Shown here: positions 779 to 25,100 of the stretch, piece by piece
Layout of the letters: every line of letters begins with the position of its first letter
Position numbering within the stretch: the stretch's first letter is position 1
NCBI GenBank assembly: GCA_963969395.1
Contig: OZ017798.1
Coordinates: 18,902,173-18,966,172, forward strand
DNA: 64,000 bases
Reading direction: 5' to 3'
From: Pseudoscleropodium purum
Taxonomy: Eukaryota > Streptophyta > Bryopsida > Hypnales > Brachytheciaceae
Translations under genes and position numbers: made by a program
Notes under the pieces: generated by a model
What the model was told of the DNA's origin: nothing
What the model saw: only the letters and a program-made list of their open reading frames with translations
Databases searched by the model: none

Positions 779-990
779 CAAGGTTGACAGGACGTCCGGA
801 CGTGGACGTTGTATCTGCAGCGTCTGCTGACATTTGTGGTCTCGGCGGACGCAGCATCCGCCGAGACCGCCTTGTCCACCTGCCCCCCCGTCCACCTGTC
901 CGCTCGTCTGCCCTGTCTGCCCCGTCTGCTTTGACGGCTCTATTTCCCCCTACCGCCCTACCCAAACTGCCTCGCGGTCACTCCCTTAAT
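779..990 (+). repeat. hAT-family end B with GC-rich subterminal region
   Basis: The terminus CAAGGTTGACAGGACGTCC agrees with end B of the complete small elements at 19393 and 4772 (reverse strand there). It is followed by CGTCC/TCCGCC words up to about 990. A perfect 12-bp stem with a 7-base loop lies at 838-868 (arm GGTCTCGGCGGA). No matching A end or target duplication is found just downstream, so this is either a truncated small copy or the left end of the large composite. Confidence 0.6.
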
Positions 991-1162
991 CTTTAAACAA
1001 TTAAATATTAAATGAAGTGCAATGGTTCGCAATTTGTTATTAAAACAATGTCTCTTATAAGTTGAATGATTATAAAGTTTGACCATGAGTCCATGATAGT
1101 CTTGAAACTATGAAAAAATTCCAATTCATTTTCAGAAGGCAAACTAAAAAAGTTTGTGACTT

Positions 1163-1165
<3 letters not shown>

Positions 1166-1219
<54 letters not shown>
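1166..1219. repeat. (TA)n microsatellite
   Basis: Uninterrupted alternating TA dinucleotides for roughly 50 bases. Confidence 0.9.
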
Positions 1220-1222
<3 letters not shown>

Positions 1223-2468
1223 AAAAAATCGAGATCAACACAAATACAAACATAATCAATATGGGCAAAATGTATTGAATTTAATATAGAATATCATACA
1301 TTGTGCACATTTGATAAATTGTACATATAATTTTTTTCATTCCAACTCTATATTTCTAAACTAATTTTTAATGCCTATATAACCTATTCAACTACTACTT
1401 CTGTACTACCAATCTAATATAAATGGCGGAAATGTTCATCTGACATCGGCCAACGATATGTATTAGAAAATCGCGTAATCACATGGGCCAAACTAGTATT
1501 TTCCTCGTCACTCTTCGAAGAAATGCGCTTCAAGTAAGCATAAAACACTTTTACAAATTCATGAAAGGGAAATTGTGTTGCACTAGGTGTTTTAAGTAGC
1601 AAGTTGAAATACGCCTTTGACATGTTGTTTCTATTCATTCGCCGAGCAATTTTTCGAATGGTATACTCTTCCGACTTACGTGAATACATTGGAATGACTT
1701 CCACATCTGCACCTGCTTTATACAAATATGCAATACGTGGATCCACCCACCATCTCCTTTGCAAAGTCTGTTTCATCTCATCTGCTAATGTGAATGTATA
1801 CAAAGACTTCATTGGCTGAGAAGCTAAGGTGGTCATGCCCCAATCGCAAACTCCAATGTATACACGTGACTCATCCTTTGGAAAATGTAACAAGATGTTG
1901 TCCGGAGAAAGATCATTGTGCAAATGTCCAGCAAGATGCACTGCATACATTATATGCATAAAGGCCCATGTAAGCTCTGTGCACTTCTTCCGATATCGCC
2001 CTAAATGGTGAGCTTTTACAACCTCCTTTTCGATTGGATTCGTATACATCAAACGGATTTGAATGTTGTCTGGATAGTCCTTATCCATATTCAACATTTG
2101 TCGAAGAGTTCCACCATTCCACCAATACGCATAACCTTCACACGTTGTTCCGTGCACCGCAGCAAACCGTATCACACCCGCGTGTGGAATTCGAACAGCC
2201 ATTGATTCGTTTTGATGTTCTAACTTTGCAAGATCGGATCGAGTTTGGTGGTGAATGAATTTTTTTGCCGCAAACTCCCAATAAAGAAGTATTCTTGGAC
2301 ATCTTTCAATACGGACCTTTCGAATCGTTGCATATCCACCTCTCATCGTTTTATCATCAACAGCAATCACGCGTGTTGTATCTGGAAGTGCTATCAGATG
2401 CCGTTTGGTCTTTTCCGCTTCAGCAACTTCATCATTGCTTTTCCACCAAGCAATCGAACCAACTCGAT

Positions 2469-2809
2469 TAGGGTTGACGAATCTCAATGTCCGCCCCAAA
2501 ATAGCGTCCGTTTTCCGGACGTCCGGACATCTGAACGTAGTGTCCCTCCCGCCGTCGGAAGGCGGACGGGCGGACAAACGCGGGCGGACAAGGGTGGACA
2601 CGGGCGGACGGGGGTAGATGGACGGGGCGAACGGAGCGGACGGGCGGGGGCGGATGGGGCGGATAGAACGGGACAGGGCAGGTGGAGCGGACGGGCAAAC
2701 AGATGCAGGCGGACGAGGGCAGACTGGGGCGGATGGGGCGGACGGCATTCGCGAATGTCAACGGACGCTGCGGACACAGCGTCTGCGTCTGGACATCTTG
2801 TCAACCCTG
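2469..2809 (-). mobile_element. Non-autonomous hAT-family element, complete copy 1
   Basis: The element runs from TAGGGTTGAC to GTCAACCCTG (imperfect terminal inverted repeats of the YAGGG hAT type), 341 bp. It is flanked by a perfect 8-bp target duplication AACTCGAT at 2461-2468 and 2810-2817. End A is on the left (CAAAATAGCGTCCG follows) and end B on the right. The interior is a run of CGGACG/GGGCGGA words with no coding capacity. It lies inside the kinase-like gene, in the opposite orientation to the next element. Confidence 0.9.
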
Positions 2810-2839
2810 AACTCGATTGTACCTTTTGGCGAATGGAGC

Positions 2840-3108
2840 TAGGGTTGACAGGACGTCTGGACGCGGACGCCGTCCGCCCTAGTCCGTCCGTCCATTTGCC
2901 CGTCCACCCGTCGTGTCCCGCCGTGTCCGCCGTGTCCGCCCGGCCCTGTCCGCCCGGCCCTGTCCGCCCCCGTCCGCCCGTCCGCCCTCGTTCGCCCGCA
3001 TCTGCCCGTCCGCCTTCCGACGGCAAGAAGGACGCTGCGTCCGCTAGCGTCCGGACGTCCGGAAAACAGACGCTATTTTGGGGCGGACGTTGAGATTCAT
3101 CAACCCTG
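2840..3108 (+). mobile_element. Non-autonomous hAT-family element, complete copy 2
   Basis: 269 bp, from TAGGGTTGACAGGACGTC (end B) to TTCATCAACCCTG (end A), flanked by a perfect 8-bp duplication AATGGAGC at 2832-2839 and 3109-3116. The interior is CCGTCCGCC-rich. It inserted 22 host bases away from copy 1, with the B ends of the two elements facing each other. Confidence 0.9.
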
Positions 3109-3750
3109 AATGGAGCACATCGCCCCCTAAATAAGTCCGCTTTCAGAATCACTTCTTCAAATTGGACGTCATTGGGTCGATATTCCTTGCCATATTTAAC
3201 CAAAATGACTTTGGAATTCCGCAAAGCGTCATGAACCTTGTTCTTCAAACATTTGGTGAAGTGCGCTTTATTCATTTCGTCATGCCACTTCGGAACATTC
3301 AATGCATCCAACAACATCTGTGTCATGTCTACCTTGAATTTAGACACGCACTCCTTTTGATATCTGATGTACTTATTGTCTAAAGACAATGTTGTTTCCA
3401 ATTCATAAAATTGAACGATGCGCTCGATCATGAATTTTTTACATTCTTCCGAAGGACTTTGGCGAGCTACCTCCAAGTTTGATGGTCCCTCTCCATGTTT
3501 TAGCTTTGCAAACTTCTTCTTCCCCTTCGTCATCGTGACAAATGAAACTGATATAGATGAAATTTTTTAATTTAAATGTGAATTCCACTCGCAAATGTCA
3601 AAAAAATTGGCAACAAGGGGGCCCCAATAAACCACTCTTGCCTTGCCTAGGAAAGGAGCCAATGGAGGATGAACCACCAAGCTCTCCGCTCCACCTTGCA
3701 TTCACAAGGGGCAAAGCAAAAGTGACAATGCGGATGGCCCAACTGCCCCT

Positions 3751-4165
3751 CTTATAAGGGCGGACGGCCCAAAACCGTCCACCCGATTGGACGGGCCGGA
3801 GGTGGTGGACGCATCAGCCGTCTGCTTCCCTGAAACCCTAGAACCCCATCCGCCCGATCGGACGGCTACGGGCGGACAAATCTGGTGTCCGTCCGATCCG
3901 ACGAGCAGGGCCGGACAGCCCGTCTGCCCCATTGGACGGCTCCAAACTGTCCACTCGATCGGACGGGCCGCGGGTGGCGGACGCATCGGCCGTCCGCCTC
4001 CTCGAAACCCTAGAGCCCTGTCAACCCGATCGGACGGCCACGAGCGGACAAATCTGGCGTCCGCTTGATCCGACGGGCAGGGACGGACGGATTAGGTGTC
4101 CGCCCAATCCAACGGCCACGGGCGGACAAATCTGGTGTAAACCGATCGAACGGCAAAGGACGGAT
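3751..4165 (-). promoter_or_regulatory. CGTCCG array plus TATA-like box upstream of kinase-like gene
   Basis: On the minus strand the array reads toward a TATA-like word (CTTATAAG, 3751-3758) 218 bp before the ATG at 3533. The array itself is an imperfect tandem duplication with a period of about 172 bp; landmark words such as CGGACAAATCTGG and AAACCCTAGA recur. Three other genes in the block have the same arrangement, which suggests a shared promoter or transposase-binding module. The function is inferred. Confidence 0.5.
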
Positions 4166-4771
4166 TGCTCTAATATATATATTTTTTATATGAGTTTCGA
4201 ATTTGATTTTGTTTTCAAATCTTAAGGCAGGCTGGGAGTCTAAAAAATGGTGCATCTGAGAACTGATCCGCTTTTTTCATTTATTTCTTTAGATGGGAAT
4301 ATTTTTTTCTCATTTTTTAGACAAAGAGAAATTGATGAGGAATTAAAATCAAGTGGTTTTGTATTTTTTCAAAGATTTGTAATTTATTTATAAATTTTCA
4401 AATGACTTGCGTCATAGGTTCCTATTGTGACCGTAGGTCTTTCATAAATGGTGCACTTGCAATTTTAAATAAAAATGGAAAAGATAAAGAGAAGGATTAA
4501 CTCTTGTATTTAATAATGTTTTTTTTTTCGGTGCATTCTATCAATGTACTTGTCAATTAAAGAACCATAAATAAACCATTTCAGTGAACTTTCATATTTG
4601 AAAATAGAATCTAAAGAGGAACCACTAATTGTCTAATTTGGACATTTTTTCATACCAATAAGAAATCATTTTAATTTTTAGCAATCGTTGAATGAAGAAT
4701 AAAAAAATTTCAAATATTCAAATAATTCAATATTTCATAAATTAATTAAAAATACATTTAAACCATTTATG

Positions 4772-5076
4772 CAGGGTTGACGAATTTGAACGTCCGCCCC
4801 AAAATAGCGTCCGTTTTCTGGACGTCCGGACGCACGGACGCTAGCGGACGCAGCGTCCCAACCGCCGTCGGAAAGCGGACGGGCGGGGCGGATGGCTCGA
4901 GGCGGACGCCCAGATCGTGCGGACGAGATCAGTCCGCGCGTCAATCGGACGACCGTAATCGGGCGGACGGGGCGGACAAGCGGACAGGGGACTGGCGGAC
5001 GCAGCGTCCGCCAGGACGCGAATGTCAGCGGATGCTGTAGACACAGCGTCCGCGTCCGGACGTCCTGACAACTCTG
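4772..5076 (-). mobile_element. Non-autonomous hAT-family element, complete copy 3
   Basis: 305 bp, starting CAGGGTTGACGAATTTGAA (end A) and finishing GACAACTCTG (end B). Target duplications are CATTTATG (4764-4771) and CATTTACG (5077-5084), 7 of 8 identical. Near end B a perfect hairpin lies at 4992-5014 (arm CTGGCGGAC). Its interior contains a segment around CCAGATCGTGCGGACGAGAT that also occurs in the 19393 element and in the array upstream of the GSY-rich gene. Confidence 0.88.
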
Positions 5077-5491
5077 CATTTACGAGTTTCTAAATGTAAT
5101 AAACACACAACAATAATTTCAAAATACACACCATGCTAGTACATATTTAACCTCGAATGCTAAATTTAGAAATAGACATAATATGGCTCTTACAAAGTTA
5201 CATTTCTTCTTCATATTTTTATTATTTATCAAAGTCGCTTATAGCCTTATACATCAACGCTATTATAAAATAATACAATGATGTCTTCAACAATATGCTT
5301 GCCTACATACATACTTGGTGTCCACTATTACACAATACTTTTTGAAAAAGTGAACAAAATTGTTGTTCAAAATTGTTCTATTCATTTAAAATTTTGTACT
5401 ATTTCTACCAATCTAGTGCTCTATACTTGTCGTGAGAGTAAAAATGAGAAAATTGAGCAAATACATGCTCACTATATACTTGCATGTTTTT

Positions 5492-6747
5492 TTATTTGGA
5501 ATCTGAATCAGACTCAAATTGTTGACCGGTGCCTTTTTCTTGTACTCCAATGAACAGACCACCTCCGTAGTTTCCGTGATATCCACTCGGTGCACCTCCT
5601 TGTCCATAATTTGAACCTCCAAAAGTGGGAGGAGGAACCGGAGTAGTAGGCTCTGATCCTCTTTCATTCGAAGCCTCGTAATAAGAGGCCCCATGATGCC
5701 CATATAAATCACTTCTAGTTGATCCCGGAAAGTATTGGGCGCTTCCGTGAAGAGAGCAACTATATTGCGGGGTTACATGGCTTCCTCTACTACTTTCAGA
5801 GCCCACTTGAGTGTGCATAGTATAATATGAACCAGATCCACTAGACCTACCATAGTGCGTGCTGCCATAGCTACCTATTCTACCTTGAGAGCCAATTTCA
5901 AGGGGAGTGCCATAATAAGAACCAATTGCACTTGAACCACCATAATGCATGGATCCATAGCTCCCTCTTCCACTTTCATATCTATTTTGAGGATCGTAAT
6001 CAGAGTATGAACCACCTCTTCTTTGTTCAGATCCTCGCGTTTCATGTTCACGTCAGTAGGATCCACCATGCCTATCTTGTTGTCCACGATCTTGAAGGCT
6101 TCTGCGTGTTGTCTCTTGCAATTGTTGTTCGAATTCAATTCGTTCTCGTTCTTCTACCCGCTCGTGCCTAACTCCAAATGTGACAGGCGCTTGCATATTA
6201 TTGTCATCATCGTCATCTGTCCACGCATCTTCAGCATCTCGTAGAACAATTGAAGGTTGTTGTAGATAACCTCGATTGGACCACTCTAACATGCAATCAT
6301 TTGCGCCCCTGCACTGTGTATTTATAACGGCATCTGTGCGCGTATAGTTCTTCACATTGCGATCTGTAGCGGTACGCCAGTCCACATCCTTGTGGAGTAC
6401 AATCTCTACCCAAACCATTGCCATAACATTATAATTCATTATATTTGGTTTGGCGCTTTTAATACCAAGAACTCGATGCACTTGTGTGTATTGTTGTTTG
6501 AAGTGCTCACTTTGGCACGTAGACATTTGTTCTTCCCAACGTGGCGCTTGGTGCTCTACACGTTCACGTGGCCAAAGTTTTTGAATGTGAGTCATTTTCA
6601 CATACTTCTTGTACATTGAGCAATCCCACGTTTTTGTTGGTTCTTCTTCCCATCCCGGTTCACCCACGCACAATGGATCGGCCCAAGCATCCAAATCGAA
6701 GTACTTCCCTTTCGACTACTTTTTTGAAGTGTTCTATCTTTCGGCAT
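5492..6747 (-). pseudogene. GSY-rich protein gene remnant, N-terminus related to the RING gene
   Basis: The likely start is ATG 6747 (MPKDRTLQKSSRKGST). A one-base shift near 6705 leads into the long frame, which has one in-frame TGA at 6053-6055 and ends at 5492. The N-terminal part (YVKMTHIQKLWPRE, then RVLGIKS and a VDW motif) aligns by eye with the same region of the gene at 10439 (YVKMYHIDKLWPQE, RVLLGNK, IDW). The two are therefore paralogous over about 110 residues. The middle has an acidic DDDDD stretch and a charged, probably helical segment rich in E, R and Q. The last ~190 residues are low-complexity and rich in G, S, Y and H (repeated GSYG/GSYY), like a disordered or prion-like tail. 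No family is recognised. A CGTCCG array and TATA-like box lie upstream. Confidence 0.6.
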
Positions 6748-6970
6748 GATGAAGCCGAAGCAAAGAGAATGAAACAATTAGAAAGCTTAAGAACCAAAAT
6801 TTTGATTTAATCAATTAATTAAAATTTAACAAGCGTGAACTTTGTGAAAATTTGTAACAATGCCACAACAATCGTTCACTCAAAGCGGATGGGGCATGCA
6901 GAGCTTCCAAGGCACTGGTCCGCCTACTCCAAAAGAGAACGATTGTTTGGAATGAGCCGTTCGCCTCCCC

Positions 6971-7190
6971 ATATATATAGGCGGACGGCCCAAGGCGGAC
7001 GTCCAGATCAAGCGGACCACATTAGTCCGCGTGTCAATCGGACGGGGCGGACAGGGCAGATGTCGAATCGAACGGACAGGGCGGACGACGGACAGGTATC
7101 GGGGCGGACAGAGGTCTAGGCAGATGGAGGGGACGGGTATGAGGGCGGACGGGTATGAGGGCGGATGGGGCGGTTTGACCCTGAAGCGCT
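6971..7190 (-). promoter_or_regulatory. CGTCCG array plus TATA-like box upstream of GSY-rich gene
   Basis: On the minus strand a CGTCCGCC-rich stretch (7190 to 6980) abuts a TATATATA word at 6971-6979, 224 bp before ATG 6747. Part of the array (around 6990-7045) matches the interior of the 4772 and 19393 elements. No terminal repeats bound it, so it is not simply an inserted small copy. Confidence 0.5.
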
Positions 7191-8033
7191 CCGACGTCCA
7201 TATTTTGCACAATAAACAGAGGTCTTCATGGCATTGTATAGTCCAACTAACTTTTCATTCATTCAATGTAAAATTTGAAATTAAAAAAGGTAGCCTTCTT
7301 TTATGACCAAATTTATGAATTCTTGGTAAATGATATTTTTGTACAAAGATATGAGCTAAAATGTACAAAAATTCACGAAAGGATTGCGAGGTTTAATATA
7401 TGTACTCAAATATTCATATTACATTGTGTATAAAGCAATTGTAAAAAGGTAGCTGAATAAAAATTCTACTATTAAATTGAATTAGTTGACGTCTAATCAC
7501 TTAGTAAACCGCTAAATGTCCAAGTCCTTGCAAGTGTGTTTTGGCTATCAAAAAAGAGCATGGACTTATAGTTATCCCCAATGAAGCAAATTGTTCTTTT
7601 TTCAAAATCTAATGGTATAGATGTTTAACCCCTAAAGTTCTTTTCACTAAAAACACTTCAAAACTGTCATTAGTAGTGCAAATACCAAGTCTTAGAAGAA
7701 AAATACTTTTGGGCATATGTAATCATAGGATCTTGTAGTAAATTAGTTGGAAAAGATGTGGAAAATTTTTTAGACAAATCCACCATTTGGATTGTAAGAT
7801 ATTAGATATTGAATGTTTCATTTAAGGGGGCTACTCAATTATGTCTATTAATGAACAATTGGTAGACTAACAAACCTAACTTAGCATGTATTTTAATATT
7901 TGTTGCAATTGTTTTAGGAATATTATAACATAACACTATTATAATATTCTTATAAATGATATAATACTAAATCATTTCAAAATCAACAACATTTGAACAC
8001 AATCTGTCAATCTTGTCTTCCATACTCCTTTAA

Positions 8034-8082
<49 letters not shown>

Positions 8083-9995
8083 TATATACATATATAAAAT
8101 ATATTAGATAAATCAACATGAACAAATCAATGATTATATATTTCATAAATCTATTCTTCATCAATCAAATAAGAGTGCATGTTCAAATATAGACAAGGAT
8201 GGTTTCTCCATTTGTTCCCAAAAATTAAATAAACAAATAAAGAAAGATATGAAGTGAATTTTACTTGGAGAATTGAAGGGAAAGAAATTGAAGTACTCAA
8301 TTGCATTTTATTAAATTGAAAAATTGCATGTGGATGACATGAATTAATCTTCATAGATGCTAAACTCATACGAGTTGCATTTCAACATTTATGATTTATG
8401 CAATTGATTGAATTGAAAGCTCTTGTAATTACATTTTCAAATTTTTGATTCAATCATTCAAATTTGCAAGAGTGATTTATGATATATTTATAACTTTAAA
8501 TGTGAAAGCATTGAATGCCTTTATGCGTTTGTTCATCAATATATTAATTTTAAATAAATAATATATATTTTTTATAACATATGCATAAACCATTGTATTA
8601 AAAAAAAAAAAAAACTAAGAGCCAAGCCAAATAGATTGGTCAAATGAAGAGAACAAGAGAACAAGAGCCCTACGAGAAAACAAAGGAAAAAAAAGAAAAT
8701 ATCAAAAGGATTCAATGGAAGGAGCAAGATGCATTCTTGCAAGACCGTAGAATACATAATGATTTCAAAATCCAAACACAAATATATTTTCTATTTCAAT
8801 GAGAGCCAAAAATGAAAAAGAACTACCCTGCTTTCAAAGATTGTACAATGTACACGTTATACAAAATGAACATATAACAAAAAGAATAGAAGACATCGTT
8901 TATCATGATTGAAAACTGAAATGATTTTTTCTTTCTATGTAGAATATTTTATGAAATGTAACAATGTATTTAATTATCATAGTAATTGGTAGAAATCTTT
9001 GTGCAATCCATAGAAACATTTCATTCATGTGGAGTTTTTTCATTTATTTAGAATTAAAATTGAAATATTATACTCTACAAAGTACAAACCGAAAACAATA
9101 CCATATATCTAAGTTCAAAAGTTTGCAATTGTTTCGTGAATTCATTTTGAAAACTCAAACGAAGAAATATTTTATAATCAATATCTTGTTCATTTGAATC
9201 ATTTCAAAATTCGAATTTCGAATTCGATTCCTATTTATAATAGAAATTATGTTTGTCTATTTTTTAGATCTTTAAACAATGAACCCTCTTTTTTAAAATT
9301 AATATTTAAAAACATCTGAAATAAGAATATTGGAATTACCCTTCAAAATAAATATAGCACATGTATAAGTGTATAATGTATTCTACTCGACCAACTCAAG
9401 CAACAAATTTTTCTATGTTTTTAAGGAAAAATATAGCCATACATGATTTGAAAGTAAAAACATTGATTCTTTTTCTTTGTTTTCAAATCTAATCAAAATT
9501 TCATTGAAAAATATGAAAGACTCAATGTTCATTTGAAGATCGTGATGCACTTCTAATGAGAAATCACAACCTTTCATTAAATATCATGAGGTTGAAATCC
9601 AATAAATTGTTATTCTAATTATGTATTAGGGCCTTTTTTTAAAATTTCATTTGCTTACAATGAAAAAGGAATTGATTATTTCTACAAAACATTTGATTTC
9701 TTAATGAACTTTAAAAATCCCCACCATCTTCAGATCTTCTCAAAACCTATTTAGAGGGATAATATAAGTAAATAATCCAAATATATTCAACTTAACCACA
9801 TTCCCCTCATTCGTAAAACAATTTAGGGAAAAAAGAAAAGGTTTAGGATAATTAGGGTATAGGGTTTAGGGTTTACATTTTTTTAAAAAAATGATAAATC
9901 AATTACATTGATCCTCATTTAGCACTGATTATTTATTATTAGGTTGTTTTTTTCGGAAATGTTACCGCTCTTTTTGAGTAATAATGGCCTCATAG
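7191..9995. other. AT-rich non-coding interval with a (TA)n tract
   Basis: No gene is supported. It contains a TA-rich microsatellite at about 8035-8098 and a short run resembling plant telomere repeats (GGGTTTAGGGTTTA, about 9863-9876). In the composite-element reading this is the central spacer between the divergent gene pairs. Confidence 0.5.
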
Positions 9996-10004
9996 GATGC
10001 TCCA

Positions 10005-10208
10005 ATGGACAGTTGGGCGGATGCCGTCGGCGGTCAGTGTTTAAGTGGGGCGGTTGGCGTGTCCAAAGCGCGGACGGTGTCGGAAGGCGGACAGTGCGGA
10101 CAGTCCGGGTGGACGGCGCGTCCGCTGCCGAAGTGGACGTTGTTGGTCCGGGCAGCGGACGCGAGGTTCGGGGCCGCTTCGCGCAGTCCGGCGGCGGATG
10201 GCTATAAG
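10005..10208 (+). promoter_or_regulatory. CGGACG array plus TATA-like box upstream of RING gene
   Basis: A GC-rich stretch (10005-10200) with repeated GCGGAC/CGTCCG words ends directly at CTATAAG (10202-10208), 231 bp before ATG 10439. The order array, TATA, ~230-bp leader, ATG is the same as at the other three genes of the block. Confidence 0.5.
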
Positions 10209-10438
10209 GGTGGAGTGACTTTTCATTTCTTCTCACTTCAATTCTCCTTCGGTGCCAAGTTGGATGTGCTACTATTGCTTTATGCGCTAGTTGCTCATAC
10301 GGGGTGGAGAGTTGGGGTCCTCTATCTTTTGTTATTGGATTACGGTTGATGCCATCACTTTTGACTATCACGTGAGATTTTTTTATTTACTTCAATTGAT
10401 TATTGAATCCAATTGACTATTGAATCCAATTGACAATC

Positions 10439-13400
10439 ATGAACGGCAAAGGTGATCGAAATATTGATGGGGTGACTCTGGGAAGCTAAGCCAAGAAAAA
10501 TAGCAAAGTGAAGGGGGCTACACATGACCTTCGGCTTGACATTTTAAATGACCCTACAATTAAAGTAGAGAGCGGGTGGGAAGATGAAGATGCGGAGTAT
10601 TGGACATCAAAAATGTGCAGGACCTATGTTAAAATGTACCACATTGACAAGTTGTGGCCTCAGGAGTCGTACAAGAGTCATATACGGGATTTTTGTTGTA
10701 AACCATGAACTTGCAACAACAAACATTTTGTCCATCGGTCTGCGGAGATGTGGCGTGTTCTATTAGGAAACAAGGTCAGAAGCAAAGGCTATATTAATTA
10801 TAGCGTGGCATGTATGGTTTACGCCAAACTTATATTAGAGCGCAAGATTGATTGGAGCACGTTTTCGACAACAACAATTTGCCCACTTCTACTTGAAGCC
10901 AATCAAAAGGACATTCCCGACTTGTACAATTTAGAGGGAGAAACAGAAAAAGTATTAAAAAATACTATAAAGGTGAAAACAGATGGTGTGGAGAAAGCCT
11001 TAAATGTTGAAGAATTACGGTCTGTACAATCTCCAATAAAAGCAATCAATGAAAGTTCTTCGAAAAATGTGGAGAAAGATGTAGAGGCGCAGGAGGGTGA
11101 AGTCTTTTCCACAACTCCAACGCATTTGACCTTTACACCAAATGTTGCGGCATAAACGCAAACGGAGTTTGTAAATGAAAGCAATGTTTGCACGGAACGC
11201 GGGGAAACTTCAAAAAGTAAAGTAGACGAAGTCTTGGCGGAGAAAGTGGCAAAGGCTAATGCTACAATTGATAGTCTGATAGCCAACAATTGTTTTGATA
11301 GTTTGGTCTACAAATCTCCGCCTATGCATCAAGGCGCTGAATCTAGTCTAGCGTTAAGTTTAGAAGACAAAATACATACGCCTCGTGGACAAGGTGTGGA
11401 GTTTGATAATATATCCTCATTATGGAGTTCCGAGCGTAAAAAGCGGGCGGAGGAGTTTCCGTTTACAATGTCATTGCCGAGTCCTCTACATCGAACCTTG
11501 CAAGACATGTCCAATCCAAAACAATTGGAAAATCTTTTGAAGCTCTCGGTTCAGTTTGGTAACTTACATGAAGAAATAGGTGGATCGTCTAACCCCGATG
11601 ATGGTGCCACTGCTGTTCCAATAAGTCCACTTGCAGATCCAAAGAATGTTGGACATATACTTGATACAGCTTTCAAGATGACGATGTCAACTGAATTTTT
11701 ATCGGAAGTTGCTCCGTCTTTTATGAATTTGGCCAAGGAGTTTTCTTTAATGGCACCAGAGATGTTGAAAGGTGCTATAGCATTTCAGAATCTCACGAAG
11801 ACTTTCGAATTACTTTTCGAAGAAAGAGATGCTCACATACTACAATTGCTGAAATATGAGAAGAAAATTGCTGACCTTGGAGGAGTGGAAGCAAGGTGCA
11901 AAATGTTGGAGTTGAAATTAAAGACTTCGGAGAGTGAGGTTGAACATTTAAATCAACAATCATCGAGGCAAATGGAGGAGTTGATGAAGATGCGTAAACG
12001 GATTGCAGAATTACAAGGGACCTCCAAGAATCCGAATGAGGTTGCAATCTCACCACTGATTGTACTCGGAGACAGTCAAGAGACTCAAGAGAGTGAAGAT
12101 AAGCTCTCTCTTCCTTTTGATAAGGCCGAAGTAAGCGACAACCTTGCTATTGTGAATGTACAAGAAAGTCACGACATGAGCATGTTAAAAGCGACACAAC
12201 AACCATCAATGGAAAAGCTTTCATCCGTTTACGTGAATGTGGAGACGCAAACGGAGAGTTGTGACTTTGAAGAGTTGAAGCATAAATGGGAGGAGGCAAT
12301 TGAAGCAAAAAGAATTGTTGAATCCGAGTTGAATCGATTGCAATTGTGCTTGGATTTGGAGAAGTTTATGCCATCTAGCGGCTTGGAGTCTCGATGATTA
12401 GCATGGGTACAAAGACTCCAAGACAGACTCTCTGTAGTATCTCAAGCAATGGTAGGTCTTCAAGCATTGGCAATGGAGTTGAATGAAAATTGCGATGCCA
12501 TTCAAAGCTTTTTGAGTTGGTTCAAGACTATGTTTGACCAACATCCTTCTAAGGGATATACGGAGATCATATGTTGGGGAGACATGGATGCCATGTTTGA
12601 GCGGTTAAACCACACAAAGAAGGACCAAGCTCCACCCATCAATTGGGCCTTGGAAGTAGAGGAAGGATGGGTCTCTTACAACACACTTTCAACACACATC
12701 AATGTGAAAGACAAGCGAGTGGTGCATGCTTGTGATCCAGCCTCTCCAATCTTGGATGGTTGTTGTAGCCTTTGCCAAGGCCTCTTCGGACCAGAAGGTG
12801 CGGTAACCATGGGCCAATGTCGCCACACTTTCCATGTCACTTGCATTGTGAAAGCATCACTCATTCATTCGGTGTGTGCCAAGTGTCGTAGTCCATTGAG
12901 TGCTAGGTTCTACGAAATGTTTGGTATCTTGGAAGCTATGCTTGCAGGCCACGAGTACAATCGTTGGAATCTTCCTCTTGATCAAGCGCCGTACAAATTC
13001 CAAAATTATCAACATTGAGGGAAGCCAATCCGATGGAATGCAAATGAACAGAGGCATGATTTGTACGAGGAATCTCAGCAACCATTGGATTTCGATGTGT
13101 GGATGACTCATAATAGAGAGGTGGAATTGCGGGCTCAAGGAATCGTAGATGACATGGCCCGTGAAATGTTTTGTCGCAACATGGGGGGACATTGGAGCTT
13201 GCAACACGAAAAGTTCTTTCGTTTTCCAGATAAAAAAGTGGAGAGAGGACCAGAAGATAGTTGGGTGGAGGTGAACCATGGAAAAGAGTTCAATGAGTAG
13301 TATAAGGCATACGACCACACCCTCGTAGGTAGGACCCTTCTATTGTCGAAGTTGGAAGAGGCTGCAAAAGTTCGTGCTGTCTATGATACAAATGGACAAA

Positions 13401-13825
13401 CAAGCACAAGACATTCATCTGTAGATGTGGCAGCAGCATTTGATAGGCGCATTGGCAATATTATAGGGCATTGGAAGGCTTTCCTATTGAATGGAGACTG
13501 CCTCACAACATGGCAAGGGAAAGGAGATGATGAAGTTGTTCAAGCGATGATAGATCGTGTGGAGAGCAACTTGAGAACCTTGAAGGCAGACAAAGTTGAT
13601 TTATCACCGAAAAGAAAACAAAAGAGGAAGCGTGAAGAGGACGATGACTTTTCTCCGGAAACCAAAAAGCAATTTCATAAGGTGGATATCGAAGTTGAAT
13701 CTGGAGGGCGAATAGTCCGTGCAAGTCAACAACGGTCAACTCGTCAATCATCTGCTAAACTCCTCGGTACAACAGATTTTCCTTTTGTTTTGGGAGAAGG
13801 TAGTGGTCCATCTGGTAGAAAGTAG
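10439..13825 (+). pseudogene. Coiled-coil / RING-H2 protein gene with six in-frame stops
   Basis: One frame runs 1129 codons from ATG 10439 (MNGKGDRN) to 13825 with no frameshift but six in-frame stops: TAA 10487, TGA 10706, TAA 11153, TGA 12395, TGA 13016, TAG 13298. Each could come from a single C-to-T change in CAA, CAG or CGA. Residues ~35-150 match the N-terminal region of the gene at 6747. A likely coiled coil lies near residues 485-540. Residues ~776-816 form a RING-H2 pattern (C-x2-C-x14-C-x-H-x2-H-x2-C-x10-C-x2-C), typical of E3 ubiquitin ligases. A basic run, KRKQKRKRE, near the C-terminus could be a nuclear localisation signal. The overall family is not recognised. It lies between the GSY-rich gene and the transposase, so a role in the element's life cycle is possible but inferred. 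Confidence 0.65.
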
Positions 13826-14127
13826 GATTTGAAGAGAATTTTGTTTTCTAAAAACAATGGTCCTTTCATTGTTTAAAAACAAAAAAGAATGTGAAAGATT
13901 TAGATCTTAAAAAGATCGTATAGGATTCAGTAGTGATATTGGAACTATGTTTTCATGTATTTTGTTTATACATATATATTTATATATAAAGATGCTATAT
14001 TTTCAATTGCGTATAAAAATATTTTTATATGTACATTTTATTTTACGTGGATGCATTCATTTGTGATTGTGTAACTTTCAAATTACATAACAATATAAAA
14101 TTTTCTAATGACTAATGGCAATGCGAA
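13826..14127. other. AT-rich spacer between RING gene and transposase gene
   Basis: No coding frame. It presumably holds the 3' untranslated region of the RING gene; a TATATATTTATATATA run lies near 13973-13988. Confidence 0.4.
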
Positions 14128-14341
14128 GTCCCCCCCGTCCGCCCCGTCCGCCCTGTCCGTCCGCCCCGTCTGCTCTGTCCGCCCGACCGCCCTGTTCGAC
14201 CGCCTCGTCCGTCGCGTCCAACCGTCCGTTGGACCCGTCCGGCCTGTCCGCTCGTCCGCTTTAGCCCCGTCCGTGCCGTTGGTTGTTTTTGAATGTTAAC
14301 CCTAAAAAATGAACCCTAAATTTTCTGGAAGGGATTATAAA
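14128..14341 (+). promoter_or_regulatory. CCGTCCGCC array plus TATA-like box upstream of hAT transposase
   Basis: CCGTCCGCC words fill 14128-14275. They are followed by GTTAACCCTA near 14295, which resembles a degraded terminus, and by ATTATAAA at 14334-14341, 249 bp before ATG 14590. The array could be a promoter module or a truncated small element; the recurrence at three other genes favours the former. Confidence 0.45.
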
Positions 14342-14589
14342 TGTTAGATGAGAAGCTTTTATATTCACTCTCAAAAAACCAAACGCTAAGATTACCAAGG
14401 GCTATGAGCTTCAATTTATTATGTTTCTTGCATGGTAATGCATAGTTCGGTGGACGGGGGGGCTTTGATTTTCAAAGCTTTGTGTGACTAATTTCATTGA
14501 TATTGTATACATTGTCACGTTGTGGGTTTCAAATTTAAAACATTCTATTGGTTTCTTTTGAAATTGAGGTAAAACATACACTTGTCAGT

Positions 14590-17500
14590 ATGGGGGCCAA
14601 ACGGATGGGGGATTTTTCTCCTTGGTATAGTCTGCCACAGGATGGTAAAGTAGAATGTAGGCTTTGCAAGGCGGTCATGGTAAGGAGGCTCGGCCGTATG
14701 TTGAGCCACTTAGGCTATCCTGGGCCTGAAGGTATACGTGATAAAGGGGTGAGCCTTTGTCTACGATTACCAATGGCAGTTCAAGATTTATTTCGGCATT
14801 GCGAAGGAGTTTTTTCCAAAACGCGTTGTAATGGACAATGTGGATGGCAACCCTGGCCCTTCAGATGTCCAAGAGTTTTCAGCCGGAAAGGTTGTGTCGC
14901 ATTCTGACTACGAAGACTCTTGTCCAGCGTCCAAAGAATTGGTATCAATGGTATGTGTCATAACTGAAGTGACTTTGAGCACAGAAGCTTCTAGTGAACG
15001 TAAAACCCTGAGAGCATCAAGTTCTAGGCCTCAGAGGCAAGGCAGCTTAGTGAATGGGTTTGAAGAAGGTCATAGACGCAAATTACATTCAGTGTGGGCA
15101 AATTTTTTTTATTCGGCGAACATACCATTTTCCATGGCTTGAAATCCAACTTTTAAAGAAGCAGTGAAGAAAATGGCTACATTCGGTAGACCATACATTC
15201 CTCCCTCATACCACAACTTTCGGTACAAATTGTTGAATGAGGCGAAGACCAACATTCAGACACAGTTGAATGCACGGACCGAAGATAGCATTCGAAAATT
15301 TGAAGCAACATTGTCCATTGATGGATGGAACTCAGTGACTAATCGACCTCTCATCAATGCCATGCTTGTATCATCCGCAAGTGAAGAATTTCTTGGATTT
15401 GTGGATACAAGTGGTTGTGAAAAAAATGCGGAGTATTTGGCAGCTGTGTTGGAAAAGTTCATTGAACAAGTGGGGTCCAAGAACGTCGTGTTAATAACTA
15501 CGGATAATGCTCCCGTGAATCCGTCCGCATGGGATCTAATATCTACAAAATATCCTCATATTTTTTACCAAGGATGCGTGGTACATGCATTGAATTTGTT
15601 GTTGAAGGATTGGGCTGCATAGAAATGGACTGCTTCCAAATTGGATAAAGGAGTTCTTGTAGCTAAATTTATCAGGAAGAGACATATGTCGCTAACTCTA
15701 TTGCGAAAGTATTCGCCAAATCTTGGTCTCTTGATGTCTGGGGATACAAGGTTCGCCTCTAAATTTATCATGATGGAGCGTTTGACAAAATTGAGAGGAG
15801 CATTCGAACAAACGGTGGTAGATCCGCAATGGGTTGAGTATGTACATACTCTCAAGAAGAAACGTGGAGCCAAAGTCCAACCAAAAGACTTGGCCTTAGC
15901 GGTGAAGAAAAGTGTTCTTGATGACCATTTTTGGAATCGGTCCATCAATTATGTGGAGATGGTTGAACCAATCATATGTGTACTCCGCGATTTGGATTCA
16001 AAATCACCATGCATGGAGAAGGTGTTGCATATCATGAGGAAGTTAGAGAAGCACGTGAACGGATTACAAAGTCCACCATTTTATTTGCTAGAAGAACTTG
16101 CAATTCCATTGGTATAGTCTTTTTATGCCCGAAGAAGAATGGTGGACAACGATCTCCAATCAACTGCAGCTCTTTTGAATCCATACCTTCTTCATAACAA
16201 AGAACTAGCGGATGACGCAGATGCAATGTCAGGATGTAAGAAAGTTTTGGAGAGAATATGTAAACCAGATGAATATGCAGTAGTGGTGAAAGAATTTGTG
16301 GCTTTTTGACACAAAGAACCTCCATTCTACAATATGTTGAATCCGGGAGAACAAATGTTGTCCGCGCATGCTTGGTGGGATTTTGAAGGTGCATGTGGCA
16401 AGTTTATAGCTCCATTAGCGAAGAGGATATTGGCTCAACCGGTGTCATCATCTTCATGTGAACGAAATTGGAGCAACTATTCTTTTGTTCACAACAAATC
16501 TTGAAATAAATTGAAACCGGAGAGAGCAGCGGATTTGGTGTACGTATATACCAACTCCAAAGTATTAAATGTATCGAAGGAAAAAAATGAAAAAAAATGG
16601 TATAATGATAATGTGGATCCGATAGAATCAGAGGATTCAGATAGGCTGACGTTAGAAGACGATGATGACGAGGATTTGGAAAGGGCCCTTTCAGCTACAG
16701 ATGGCGGGGATGACTTCAATCGTGCGACAGCGTGGGGAGATGAAGACGTTATAAAAGGCTTTCTCGATTTAGTGAATGATACGCATGATTATCATCTAAA
16801 CCGCAAGGATGTCGTTCCCGACAATGCAAACGATGCATATACCTTTTGTGAAGACGAAGACAATGTAAGGGTACAAGCGAATCTACCTTCTTTAACTGCA
16901 TATTGCAATGGAATGAGATTCTTGAATAGCGAAAACATTCTATCGGAAAAGGCAAACGCTATTGTCAAAAAGGTGAAAATCAATGAGAATGCTATTGGTG
17001 ATGATGGGAGAAATGAAAAAGTTTTAATTTTTCAATCTCCATCTATAGCATTAAATGTAGTGCAAGGAAACAACAAAAGAAAAGATGCGGTCATGGAGGT
17101 GGACGTTCCAAAAGATGTGGGCAACAGTAGTGGTGATGAGGGGGAACCAAATATTGCGGTACAGAAAAATAGTAATTCAGTTGGGATGGCAGTCACAAAT
17201 TCAGCAATTGTAAAGAGTGATAAAAGAAAGGAGCCAATGAAGTCAATTTTTGAAGTACTGAGATCTAGTGCTCTTCCACCAATACCGTTGAAGTCTATTA
17301 GCACACGATTGGATGATTCTCAGAGCTTTGGATATGGAAAATGCCTAATGAACATTTCCAAAGAAATTTCTATAGGCGGTAATCTACGGAAAGTAGCGTC
17401 ATCACCTACAAACCTAAGTGATACGGATAATGATCGGATGCCATTGGCATCTTTGCGAGCTCGCATTTTAGGAAAAGGAATGGCGCAAGAACCCATCAAA

Positions 17501-17968
17501 TTAACAAACGGCACTCTATTACTTCAAAAGAAAGCCAAAGTGAAGATAACCGTTCATGGACATGTCGACCCTATATCGAGATTGATGGTTTAAGAATCGA
17601 GTAAGGTGAAAGCGAAAAGAGAAATGCAACCTTTTGTTATATTTCCAGTGAAGAATAGGACCCCTCTTGATGAAAATGTTGCTACTTTGTCAAATAGAAA
17701 GAAAAGAAAGGTTCCTATTCAAAAAGCCTTTAATTGTTTTGTCAAAGTAAAAAAAGAAAAATTAAATTCAAAAGAAGGGAGTAAACCTACTTCGAGAGAA
17801 AACTTGAAGAAGACAACGATATTTGATTTCAACAACGAAGATGACTCCAATAATGAAGATTTTGAACGAAGAGCTGCAAGAGAGAGTAATGGGGCTGAAG
17901 TTAAAGGAGATGTGGATTGGCGTCCATATGAATTGTGGAAATGTGAATTTAGATGTTTGATTGTTTAG
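14590..17968 (+). pseudogene. hAT-superfamily transposase remnant with long C-terminal extension
   Basis: A BED-like zinc finger opens the protein (VECRLCKAVM, then LSHLGY, from ATG 14590). A one-base shift near 14810 leads into one frame that reaches 17968, interrupted at 15140 (TGA), 15620 (TAG), 16115 (TAG), 16307 (TGA), 16502 (TGA) and 17591 (TAA). A DUF659-type core lies at about 15150-15620 (LSIDGWNSVTNRPLIN, TTDNAPVN, CVVHALN). The C-terminal hAT dimerisation domain is at about 16370-16560 (SSSSCERNWSNYSFVHNKS, then NKLKPERAADLVYVYTN). The stop at 16502 sits where the family normally has arginine, consistent with CGA to TGA. Beyond this domain about 470 further residues follow, acidic then lysine-rich, which is unusual for a hAT transposase. 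It cannot make full-length protein as read. Confidence 0.85.
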
Positions 17969-18275
17969 TTGCTTATGATATATGGAGCTCATGTTGACAA
18001 ATGACAATGGTTTCTTCAATCATTTTATTATAAAATTGTTTGTTTATTGATGATATACATCTTACTGGATTTTAAAGTGATTTTGTTTCTAAATCAAAAT
18101 GAAATTCAACAAAAAAATTAAAAATATATTTCATATTTTAGCTTTTACATAAATAGAGATATATAAATCTATTGAATTGCAATTGCAATATAAGAAAAAT
18201 CAAAATCAAAATGACTTCACTCTCAATCTCTCATTGGTGAAAACAATCAAAACAAAAAACCCAAAACGGGTTTTC

Positions 18276-18391
18276 TAAGCCGCCCCGTCCGTCCGCCTTC
18301 CGACGGCGGGAGGGACGCTGCATCCACTAGCATCCAGACATCCAAATTACGGACACTATTTTGGAGCGGATGTAGAGATTTATCAACCCTA
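18276..18391 (+). repeat. hAT-family end A (right terminus of the composite, or truncated copy)
   Basis: The stretch contains CCGTCCGTCCGCCTTCCGACGG, the spacer GACACTATTTTGGAGCGG and the terminus TTATCAACCCTA. This matches end A of the complete elements with several C-to-T type differences. No B end lies close by on the left. It sits 308 bp after the end of the transposase frame. Confidence 0.7.
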
Positions 18392-18393
18392 CA

Positions 18394-18552
18394 CAATATA
18401 TCATACATAGTACATCATACAAAATAGACCACATATAATACATCATATAAAGTACACCATATACCATATATATTACATCATACAACTACACCATATAAAT
18501 ATACAAGATATCATACAAGTACACCATATACTGTACAAAATACACCATATTT
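18394..18552. repeat. Degenerate minisatellite (ACATCATA / ACACCATATA units)
   Basis: Short phrases such as ACATCATACA and GTACACCATATA recur about ten times with drift. Confidence 0.7.
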
Positions 18553-19392: not shown

Positions 19393-19664
19393 CAAGGTTG
19401 ACACGACGTCCAGACGTGGACGCTACGTCCGTAGCGTCCGCTGACATTCGCATCCGCCTGTCCGCCCCGTCCGCCTGGTTACGACCGTCCGATCGACACG
19501 CGGACTGATGTGGTCCACACGATCTAGGTGTCCGCCCCATTCGTCCGCCCCGCCCGTCCGCCTTCCGATGGCAAGTGGGACGCTGCGTCCGCTAGCATCC
19601 GGACGTCCGGACGTTCGGAAAACGGACGCTATTTTGGGGCGGACGTTGAGATTCGTCAACCCTG
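19393..19664 (+). mobile_element. Non-autonomous hAT-family element, complete copy 4
   Basis: 272 bp, beginning CAAGGTTGACACGACGTCC (end B) and finishing GATTCGTCAACCCTG (end A). Target duplications are TGAGAGTC (19385-19392) and TGAGAGTT (19665-19672), 7 of 8 identical. The B end is the closest match to the terminus at 779. It has no coding capacity. Confidence 0.9.
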
Positions 19665-22140: not shown

Positions 22141-25100
22141 TCAAGGAAAACAAGTTTCTACTTCATTTGGGAAGGCCACCAAGCTTGGACATTCTTTCAA
22201 TTTGAGAGTGGTCAAGGAAGACAAGTTCCTCACTTCATTTGGCAAGGCCACCAAGCTTGAACACTTCCTCAAATCTAGAGTGGTCAAGGAAGACAAGTTC
22301 CCCACTTCATTTGGTAAGGCCACCAAGCTTGAACACCCTTTTAAATTTAGAGTGGTTAAGGAAGACAACTTCCCCACTTCATTTGGCAAGGCCACCAAGC
22401 TTGAACACAGCCACATATAAAGAGTGGTCAAGGAAGACAAGTTCCCCACTTCATTTGGCAAGGCCACCAAGCTTGAACAGCCACCCAAAGATAGAGTGGT
22501 CAAGGAAGACAAGTTCCCCACTTCATTTGGCAAGGCCACCAAGCTTGAACACCCACTCAAATATAGAGTGGTCAAGGAAGACAAGTTCCCCACTTCATTT
22601 GGCAAGGCCACCAAGCTTGAACACCCTTCTAAATTTAGAGTGGTCAAGGAAGACAAGTTCCCCACTTCATTTGGCAAGGCCACCAAGCTTGAACACCCTT
22701 CCAACTCTAAAGTCGTCAAGGAAGACAAGTTCCCCACTTCATTTGGCAAGGCCACCAAGCTTGAACACCCTTCCAATTCTAAAGTCGTCAAGGAAGACAA
22801 GTTCCCCACTTCATTTGGCAAGGCCACCAAGCTTGAACACCCTTCCAACTCTAAAGTCGTCAAGGAAGACAAGTTCCCCACTTCATTTGGCAAGGCCACC
22901 AAGCTTGAACAGCCACCCAAAGATAGAGTGGTCAAGGAAGACAAGTTCCCCACTTCATTTGGCAAGGCCACCAAGCTTGAACACCCACTCAAATATAGAG
23001 TGGTCAAGGAAGACAAGTTCCCCACTTCATTTGGCAAGGCCACCAAGCTTGAACACTCCCACAAAGATAGAGTGGTCAAGGAAGACAAGTTCCCCACTTC
23101 ATTTGGCAAGGCCACCAAGCTTGAACACCCACTCAAATATAGAGTGGTCAAGGAAGACAAGTTCCCCACTTCATTTGGCAAGGCCACCAAGCTTGAACAC
23201 CCTTCCAACTCTAAAGTCGTCAAGGAAGACAAGTTCCCCACTTCATTTGGCAAGGCCACCAAGCTTGAACAGCCACCCAAAGATAGAGTGGTCAAGGAAG
23301 ACAAGTTCCCCACTTCATTTGGCAAGGCCACCAAGCTTGAACACCTATTCAATTCGAGAGTGGTCAAGGAAGACAAGTTCCCCACTTCATTTGGCAAGGC
23401 CACCAAGCTTGAACACCCACTCAAATATAGAGTGGTCAAGGAAGACAAGTTCCCCACTTCATTTGGCAAGGCCACCAAGCTTGAACACCCACTCAAATTT
23501 AGAGTGGTCAAGGAAGACAAGTTCCCCACTTCATTTGGCAAGGCCACCAAGCTTGAACACTCCCACAAAGATAGAGTAGTCAAGGAAGACAAGTTCCCCA
23601 CTTCATTTGGCAAGGCCACCAAGCTTGAACACCCACTCAAATTTAGAGTGGTCAAGGAAGACAAGTTCCCCACTTCATTTGGCAAGGCCACCAAGCTTGA
23701 ACACTCCCACAAAGATAGAGTGGTCAAGGAAGACAAGTTCCCCACTTCATTTGGCAAGGCCACCAAGCTTGAACACTCCCACAAAGATAGAGTGGTCAAG
23801 GAAGACAAGTTCCCCACTTCATTTGGCAAGGCCACCAAGCTTGAACACCCACTCAAATATAGAGTGGTCAAGGAAGACAAGTTCCCCACTTCATTTGGCA
23901 AGGCCACCAAGCTTGAACACCTATTCAATTCGAGAGTGGTCAAGGAAGACAAGTTCCCCACTTCATTTGGCAAGGCCACCAAGCTTGAACACCCACTCAA
24001 ATTTAGAGTGGTCAAGGAAGACAAGTTCCCCACTTCATTTGGCAAGGCCACCAAGCTTAAACACCAATTCAATTTTAGAGTGGTCAAGGAAGACAAGTTC
24101 CCCACTTCATTTGGCAAGGCCACCAAGCTTGAACACCTATTCAATTCGAGAGTGGTCAAGGAAGACAAGTTCCCCACTTCATTTGGCAAGGCCACCAAGC
24201 TTAAACACCAATTCAATTTTAGAGTGGTCAAGGAAGACAAGTTCCCCACTTCATTTGGCAAGGCCACCAAGCTTGAACACGAAGTCAAATATAGAGTGGT
24301 CAAGGAAGACAAGTTCCCCACTTCATTTGGTAAGGCCACCAAGCTTGAACACCCATTCAAATCTAGAGTGGTCAAGGAAGACAAGTTCCCCACTTCATTT
24401 GGCAAGGCCACCAAGCTTGAACACCCACTCAAATCTAGAGTGGTCAAGGAAGACAAGTTCCCCACTTCATTTGGCAAGGCCACCAAGCTTGAACACTCCC
24501 ACAAAGATAGAGTGGTCAAGGAAGACAAGTTCCCCACTTCATTTGGCAAGGCCACCAAGCTTGAACACTCCCACAAAGATAGAGTGGTCAAGGAAGACAA
24601 GTTCCCCACTTCATTTGGCAAGGCCACCAAGCTTGAACACCCACTCAAATATAGAGTGGTCAAGGAAGACAAGTTCCCCACTTCATTTGGCAAGGCCACC
24701 AAGCTTGAACACCTATTCAATTCGAGAGTGGTCAAGGAAGACAAGTTCCCCACTTCATTTGGCAAGGCCACCAAGCTTGAACACCCACTCAAATTTAGAG
24801 TGGTCAAGGAAGACAAGTTCCCCACTTCATTTGGCAAGGCCACCAAGCTTAAACACCAATTCAATTTTAGAGTGGTCAAGGAAGACAAGTTCCCCACTTC
24901 ATTTGGCAAGGCCACCAAGCTTGAACACCTATTCAATTCGAGAGTGGTCAAGGAAGACAAGTTCCCCACTTCATTTGGCAAGGCCACCAAGCTTAAACAC
25001 CAATTCAATTTTAGAGTGGTCAAGGAAGACAAGTTCCCCACTTCATTTGGCAAGGCCACCAAGCTTGAACACGAAGTCAAATATAGAGTGGTCAAGGAAG

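Follow-up and report, generated by a model that had tools for sequence, protein, structure and literature searches.

A probable degenerate copy of a four-gene hAT transposon family in the genome of the moss Pseudoscleropodium purum

Gene content of the locus

Contig OZ017798.1 of the moss Pseudoscleropodium purum contains, within a stretch of 64,000 nucleotides (positions 18,902,173 to 18,966,172; hereafter the window, in whose own coordinates all positions are given), two hAT-type transposon ends that face each other 17,613 bp apart, one of type B at 779 and one of type A at 18391. Between them lie four genes (Table 1), and the region is probably, as argued below, a copy of a large multi-gene hAT element. 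The two genes on the left, which encode a kinase-like protein and a GSY-rich protein, point leftwards, and the two on the right, which encode a RING-H2 protein and a DUF659-type hAT transposase, point rightwards; an AT-rich middle of about 2.8 kb, without a cluster of the CGGAC motif, separates these outward-pointing pairs. Both this arrangement and the identities of the genes had been proposed in a sequence-only reading of the same DNA; the former is borne out by the scan for ends and the reading of the frames, and the latter hold on the evidence of the open frames and of a Pfam scan of the window, in which each match was judged against the cut-off of its own family and the kinase, RING and BED matches stayed below it. 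At gathering scores, Rfam gave no matches in the window.

Table 1. Coordinates of the hAT ends, genes, short elements and motif clusters in the window
Feature	Position	Strand	Evidence and remarks
hAT B end and CGGAC-containing subterminal region	779..990	+	22/23 consensus bases; 4 CGGAC/GTCCG motifs at 794-902
Kinase-like gene, split by e1 and e2	1414..3533	-	Open frames, Pfam, 79 relatives in protein search
e1, short non-autonomous hAT inside kinase gene	2469..2809	-	Duplication AACTCGAT, 8/8
e2, short non-autonomous hAT inside kinase gene	2840..3108	+	Duplication AATGGAGC, 8/8
CGGAC cluster upstream of kinase gene, 15 motifs	3761..4127		Overlaps 172-bp tandem duplication; TATA-like box at -223
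e3, short non-autonomous hAT	4772..5076	-	Duplication 7/8
GSY-rich protein gene, one internal stop, tentative start	5492..6694	-	Open frame; N-terminus homologous to RING proteins
CGGAC cluster upstream of GSY gene, 12 motifs, TATA-like run	6918..7150		Contains e3/e4-like stretch
CGGAC cluster upstream of RING gene, 8 motifs	10071..10190		TATA-like box at -236
RING-H2 gene, 1128 codons, six internal stops	10439..13825	+	Single frame; N-terminal domain common with GSY, RING-H2 finger
CGGAC cluster upstream of transposase gene, 11 motifs	14137..14273		TATA-like at -254 and -230, not adjoining cluster
hAT transposase gene	about 14590..17968	+	BED-type finger, DUF659 core, long C-terminal part
hAT A end	18280..18391	-	23/28 consensus bases
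e4, short non-autonomous hAT outside the long unit	19393..19664	+	Duplication 7/8, 8/8 with one-base shift

The transposase is read in two frames, one encoding the BED-type finger (14590-14907; E 0.012, below the cut-off) and the other the DUF659 core (E 3.4e-28, above the cut-off) and the long C-terminal part (14834-17968, with six internal stops), so that either a frameshift or an intron is to be assumed near 14.83-14.91 kb. A protein search retrieved 27 relatives of this protein, including a distant one, 30% identical, from Vicia villosa. In two of them, P0002 and P0010, the Dimer_Tnp_hAT domain (PF05699) scores above the cut-off, and the corresponding stretch of the window's own transposase lies between internal stops. 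A long part after the dimerisation domain is found in 9 of the 10 relatives aligned, and 13 of the 27 carry a GAE[VI]KGD motif close to their end. A search of the PDB with the transposase profile gave no match at E values up to 0.1.

The kinase-like gene was read in two pieces (1414-2466 and 3109-3533), neither of which contains an internal stop; the 30 bases between the two insertions (2810-2839) were not read apart. The Pkinase match in the window (E 1.1e-4) is below the Pfam cut-off, and the HxD...N and DxG motifs of the protein kinase fold are present; the predicted structure of one relative shows this fold. The structure model matches PDB kinases (best E 6.2e-8) and viral kinases (best E 2.8e-7) about equally generically, and a viral origin is accordingly not argued. 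Nearly all relatives in the protein searches are unannotated, the named ones being the above protein of Vicia villosa and three relatives of the kinase: two from Ceratodon purpureus, 51% and 44% identical to the window, and P0033, 70% identical to the window's piece, which is labelled as a Bacilli metagenome-assembled genome and probably represents contamination. The locus tag of one of these Ceratodon relatives, KC19_VG055000, presumably places it on the V chromosome. The 44%-identical Ceratodon cluster consists of 126 member sequences, which would fit a repeated gene, although the members need not be separate genomic copies. Kinase relatives of 491-499 amino acids occur at 44-45% identity.

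For the RING-H2 protein, the best match to RING families in the window has an E value of 6.8e-6, below the Pfam cut-offs, and zf-RING_11 exceeds its cut-off in the relative P0028 (27.9 vs 27). The eight zinc ligands of the C3H2C3 pattern are invariant in the five aligned RING sequences; ubiquitin ligase activity is predicted from the domain. At least four relatives were found among the 7993 candidates sharing most words that the search scored, and since only these were scored, more relatives may exist; three of the four listed are 1120-1140 amino acids long, two of them at 44% identity. The existence of full-length, divergent relatives of both the RING and the kinase proteins argues for selection on the proteins.

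The GSY-rich protein shares its N-terminus with the RING protein: its first ~108 residues match RING residues 34-141. The N-termini of GSY and of the RING relative P0030 are 38% identical over 104 residues (pairwise E 9e-21), hhalign gives a probability of 98.8% for the GSY and RING N-termini, and when the GSY N-terminus was searched against all 110 proteins retrieved, the RING relatives, four in number, scored E 4.6e-19 to 8.5e-13, the next best match having an E value of 1.7. Common descent thus connects a protein encoded in the left half with one encoded in the right. Pfam gave no match in the GSY piece scanned, and assigns the common stretch to no family in P0028, P0030 and P0031 either. 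A PDB sequence search with the RING alignment matched the RING finger and, weakly, the stretch 398-530, and nothing in the common N-terminal domain at E values up to 0.1; the RING/GSY structure model, built from six sequences, is unusable (mean predicted local distance difference test score 37.5).

The observed/expected CpG ratio is 0.71-1.04 in the gene pieces measured vs 0.37 at 32-62 kb, uncorrected for coding content.

Ends, short elements and target duplications

The window was scanned with consensus sequences of the two ends, allowing up to 7 mismatches for B (23 bases) and up to 8 for A (28 bases). Ten hAT-type ends of a single family were detected, all within the first 20 kb: B-type at 780, 2841 and 19394 on the forward strand and at 2808 and 5075 on the reverse strand, and A-type at 2470 and 4773 (forward) and at 3107, 18390 and 19663 (reverse); four additional B-type matches with 6-7 mismatches fall within short elements. 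Eight of the ten belong together in pairs as the termini of four short elements, e1 to e4, each 269-341 bp long, and the only unpaired ends, those at 779 and 18391, bracket the four genes. The terminal inverted repeats of the long unit, CAAGGTTGACAG at 779 and ATCAACCCTA at 18391, are of the hAT type and resemble those of the short elements, to which the B end is 79-93% identical over 27-115 bp and the A end (compared with those of e1-e4) 76-82% identical over 102-119 bp. The assignment of this family of ends to hAT is supported by the 8-bp duplications flanking the short elements that carry them; among 20,000 draws of random pairs at fixed positions, 2 agreed at 8/8 bases and 18 at 7/8.

The long unit itself has no such duplication: as already indicated in the sequence-only reading, its flanking octamers do not match (1/8 identical), and the best of 49 shifts gives 5/8, the commonest random value. 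An imperfect AT-rich tandem array at 18390-18549 starts exactly at the long unit's A end and may bear on the missing duplication.

Inside e3 (4887-4951) and e4 (19485-19536) lie stretches of 52-65 bp with 85% identity to a part of the GSY upstream region (6980-7045), and the match is inverted relative to the B-to-A axis. The idea that e3 and e4 are internal deletions of the long copy that retain this upstream region was dropped on account of this inversion.

CGGAC clusters and putative control regions

Of the 134 CGGAC/GTCCG motifs in the window, 779-18391 together with the short elements inside it accounts for 111, e4 for 15 and the remainder for 8. Apart from the ends and e1-e3, the motifs of the long unit form four clusters, one upstream of each gene. 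When clusters were placed at random in simulations, each of the four genes received one in the 550 bp upstream of it with P 2.8e-5; the criteria had been fixed with the pattern already known, and the GSY start was taken as 6742. TATA-like boxes occur in the same regions, that of the GSY gene at -281 to -285 as counted from the TTG at 6694.

In other hAT elements, subterminal motifs bind the transposase. Given that the motif that marks the ends is clustered upstream of each gene, binding of the transposase at these clusters, which is proposed here by analogy, could couple the expression of the genes with the mobility of the element.

Linkage of the genes in divergent relatives

Association of these genes beyond the window is suggested by the sizes of the contigs that carry their relatives, the size given for each hit being that of its longest contig. 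The comparison took in 27 transposase, 4 RING and 78 kinase hits, a further kinase hit without a contig size being omitted. The transposase relative P0002 and the RING relative P0030, each represented by one sequence on one contig, both come from contigs of 17,649 bp and are alike in their divergence from the window (46% identity over 1054 columns and 44% over 1148, respectively). Similarly, the transposase relative P0010 (54% over 551 columns) and the kinase relative P0081 (58% over 216), each with a single contig, both come from contigs of 27,639 bp. These two, the only cross-family matches and both above 10 kb, compare with 0.0025 expected above 10 kb and 0.11 at any size when contig sizes are jittered by -20 to +25%. 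The equal sizes are strong but indirect evidence that links the transposase with both the RING and the kinase proteins. Pattern-based scans confirmed no relatives among viral contigs (with the transposase, RING and kinase alignments) or among genome contigs (with the kinase and transposase alignments).

A four-gene family and its alternatives

Based on the equal-sized contigs of the relatives, the domain common to GSY and RING, and the presence of a CGGAC cluster at each gene, the four genes appear to belong to one family, and the region 779-18391 is probably a degenerate copy of this large four-gene hAT family, itself probably a family of mosses, with rearranged flanks. The proposal in the sequence-only reading that the four genes form one unit is therefore supported for the family, and is not supported for 779-18391 as a single clean insertion because the target-site duplication is missing. 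Simple decay hardly explains this absence, given how closely the ends still resemble their counterparts in the short elements; more likely, copies recombined or one flank was rearranged.

Several observations weigh against the four-gene interpretation. Apart from the missing duplication, internal stops are unevenly spread, with six each in the RING and transposase frames, one in GSY and none in the two kinase pieces read, and the two halves could differ in age. The linkage evidence in relatives consists of equal contig sizes; no RING-kinase pair was found on equal-sized contigs (4 RING vs 78 kinase hits), and 8 of the 10 transposase relatives on contigs above 10 kb match no RING or kinase hit in size. 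The inverted match of e3 and e4 implies that the short elements did not arise from the long copy by simple internal deletion. Finally, the TATA-like boxes, for which there is no chance control, belong to a kind of match that is common in AT-rich DNA, and there are three such matches upstream of the transposase gene (-254, -230 and -496), with the box not adjoining the CGGAC cluster.

The absent common duplication, the uneven stop counts and the AT-rich DNA between the halves, free of CGGAC clusters, would all suit the principal alternative, namely that two or more related hAT elements are adjacent: one on the left that carries the kinase and GSY genes and retains the B end at 779, and one on the right that carries the RING and transposase genes and retains the A end at 18391, the opposite end of each being lost. 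We regard this as unlikely, considering that a kinase and a transposase relative both occur on 27,639-bp contigs, that the left-half GSY and the right-half RING proteins have a domain in common, and that no further end was detected within the mismatch limits in the interval from e3 to the A end at 18390.

Plant DNA transposons are known to capture host genes, and both kinases and RING proteins form common families in the host, so that a single-gene hAT might have captured host genes in the Pack-TYPE manner or landed among them, making the kinase, RING and GSY genes passengers of one copy; host-gene relatives may also be present among the mostly unannotated RING and kinase matches. The recurrence of equal contig sizes for relatives only 44-58% identical to the window, and the element-type CGGAC cluster upstream of each gene, speak against passengers and leave this a rather improbable explanation. 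Least plausible, indeed very improbable, is an immobile host gene cluster with a domesticated transposase, flanked by unrelated remnants at 779 and 18391: it would accommodate the lack of a target duplication, the decay of the genes and the other ends of the family nearby, and is disfavoured by the kinase cluster of 126 member sequences (not necessarily separate genomic copies), the element-type CGGAC clusters at each gene, and the higher CpG ratios of the genes, uncorrected as these are.

If 779-18391 is indeed a copy of a four-gene hAT family, the CGGAC-rich ends would serve as recognition sites for its DUF659-type transposase, which would mobilise the element by cut-and-paste with 8-bp duplications. 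The short elements e1-e4, which have common ends and duplications, would have been moved by the same machinery, perhaps by the window's transposase itself. The kinase-like, RING-H2 and GSY-rich genes would be long-standing accessory genes of the family, with the transposase also binding at the gene-upstream clusters. To judge from their domains, the accessory proteins most likely control the host or the transposase, the kinase by phosphorylation and the RING protein by ligating ubiquitin, with the GSY protein perhaps acting as a partner or competitor of the RING protein through the common N-terminal domain. The unmatched flanks suggest that the long copy was rearranged after insertion, for example through recombination between two copies.

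Two further features lie elsewhere in the window. A gene on the reverse strand at 22141-31380 has frames that by eye look kinase-like (29773-31380), NBS-like (28570-29637) and LRR-like, a combination linked with mosses which, like the two Ceratodon kinase relatives, accords with the moss source. Within its LRR part, an open frame of 2084 residues contains a 72-bp unit repeated 83 times (92% matches). At 38768-38831 there is a 31-bp tandem repeat (2.1 copies, 100% matches).

Comparison with known elements and implications

The hAT superfamily, which includes Ac/Ds, Tol2, hobo and the plant DUF659/BED type, typically consists of single-gene transposons. The present locus agrees with the superfamily in its terminal inverted repeats starting with YA(A/G)GG, the 8-bp duplications on the short elements, the clusters of a subterminal motif, and the presence of DUF659 in the window and of DUF659 with Dimer_Tnp_hAT in relatives. 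It departs from the one-gene norm in having four genes, including the kinase-like, RING-H2 and GSY genes, and from the norm for the transposase in the long part that follows the dimerisation domain in relatives, with GAE[VI]KGD near the end.

Accessory proteins are known from other DNA transposons of plants, among them MuDR (mudrB), VANDAL (VANC) and Spm (tnpA), and some of these bind element repeats or counter silencing; these elements resemble 779-18391 in carrying accessory genes, but are not hATs and lack a kinase or RING protein. Pack-TYPE transposons contain captured gene fragments between hAT or other ends and have no transposase of their own. The likeness of 779-18391 to these lies in the hAT ends around non-transposase genes; unlike them, it contains a transposase gene, and its RING and kinase proteins have full-length relatives. 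For Styx of Zymoseptoria, a DNA transposon of the IS3EU superfamily, four open reading frames are described that comprise a transposase and accessory genes (PMC10853768). Styx differs from 779-18391 in being fungal, in its superfamily, in its length of 7927 bp and in its genes, which include two with GATA and CCHC motifs and one with DUF3577 (PMC10853768). DNA transposons with accessory genes are known in other superfamilies, and what would be new is a hAT that carries a kinase and a RING protein. Among the papers listed in searches of the open-licence literature, none concerned a multi-gene hAT with kinase or RING genes, which does not imply absence in print. As for mosses, a 2018 survey of plant hATs reports that no hAT sequences were detected in Physcomitrella (PMC6027215).

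It can be suggested, tentatively and with rather more doubt than confidence, that mosses harbour an old lineage of large hATs with a host-control module, consisting of the kinase, a RING-H2 ubiquitin ligase and the GSY-rich protein, in which the control regions of the genes are built of the transposase's own binding motif. If this is true, the hAT superfamily, too, can acquire lasting accessory genes, and the family would offer a testable case of a transposon that manipulates host signalling or protein turnover. Kinase genes that are annotated as ordinary in moss genomes, such as KC19_VG055000 of Ceratodon purpureus, might then be explained as genes of such elements.

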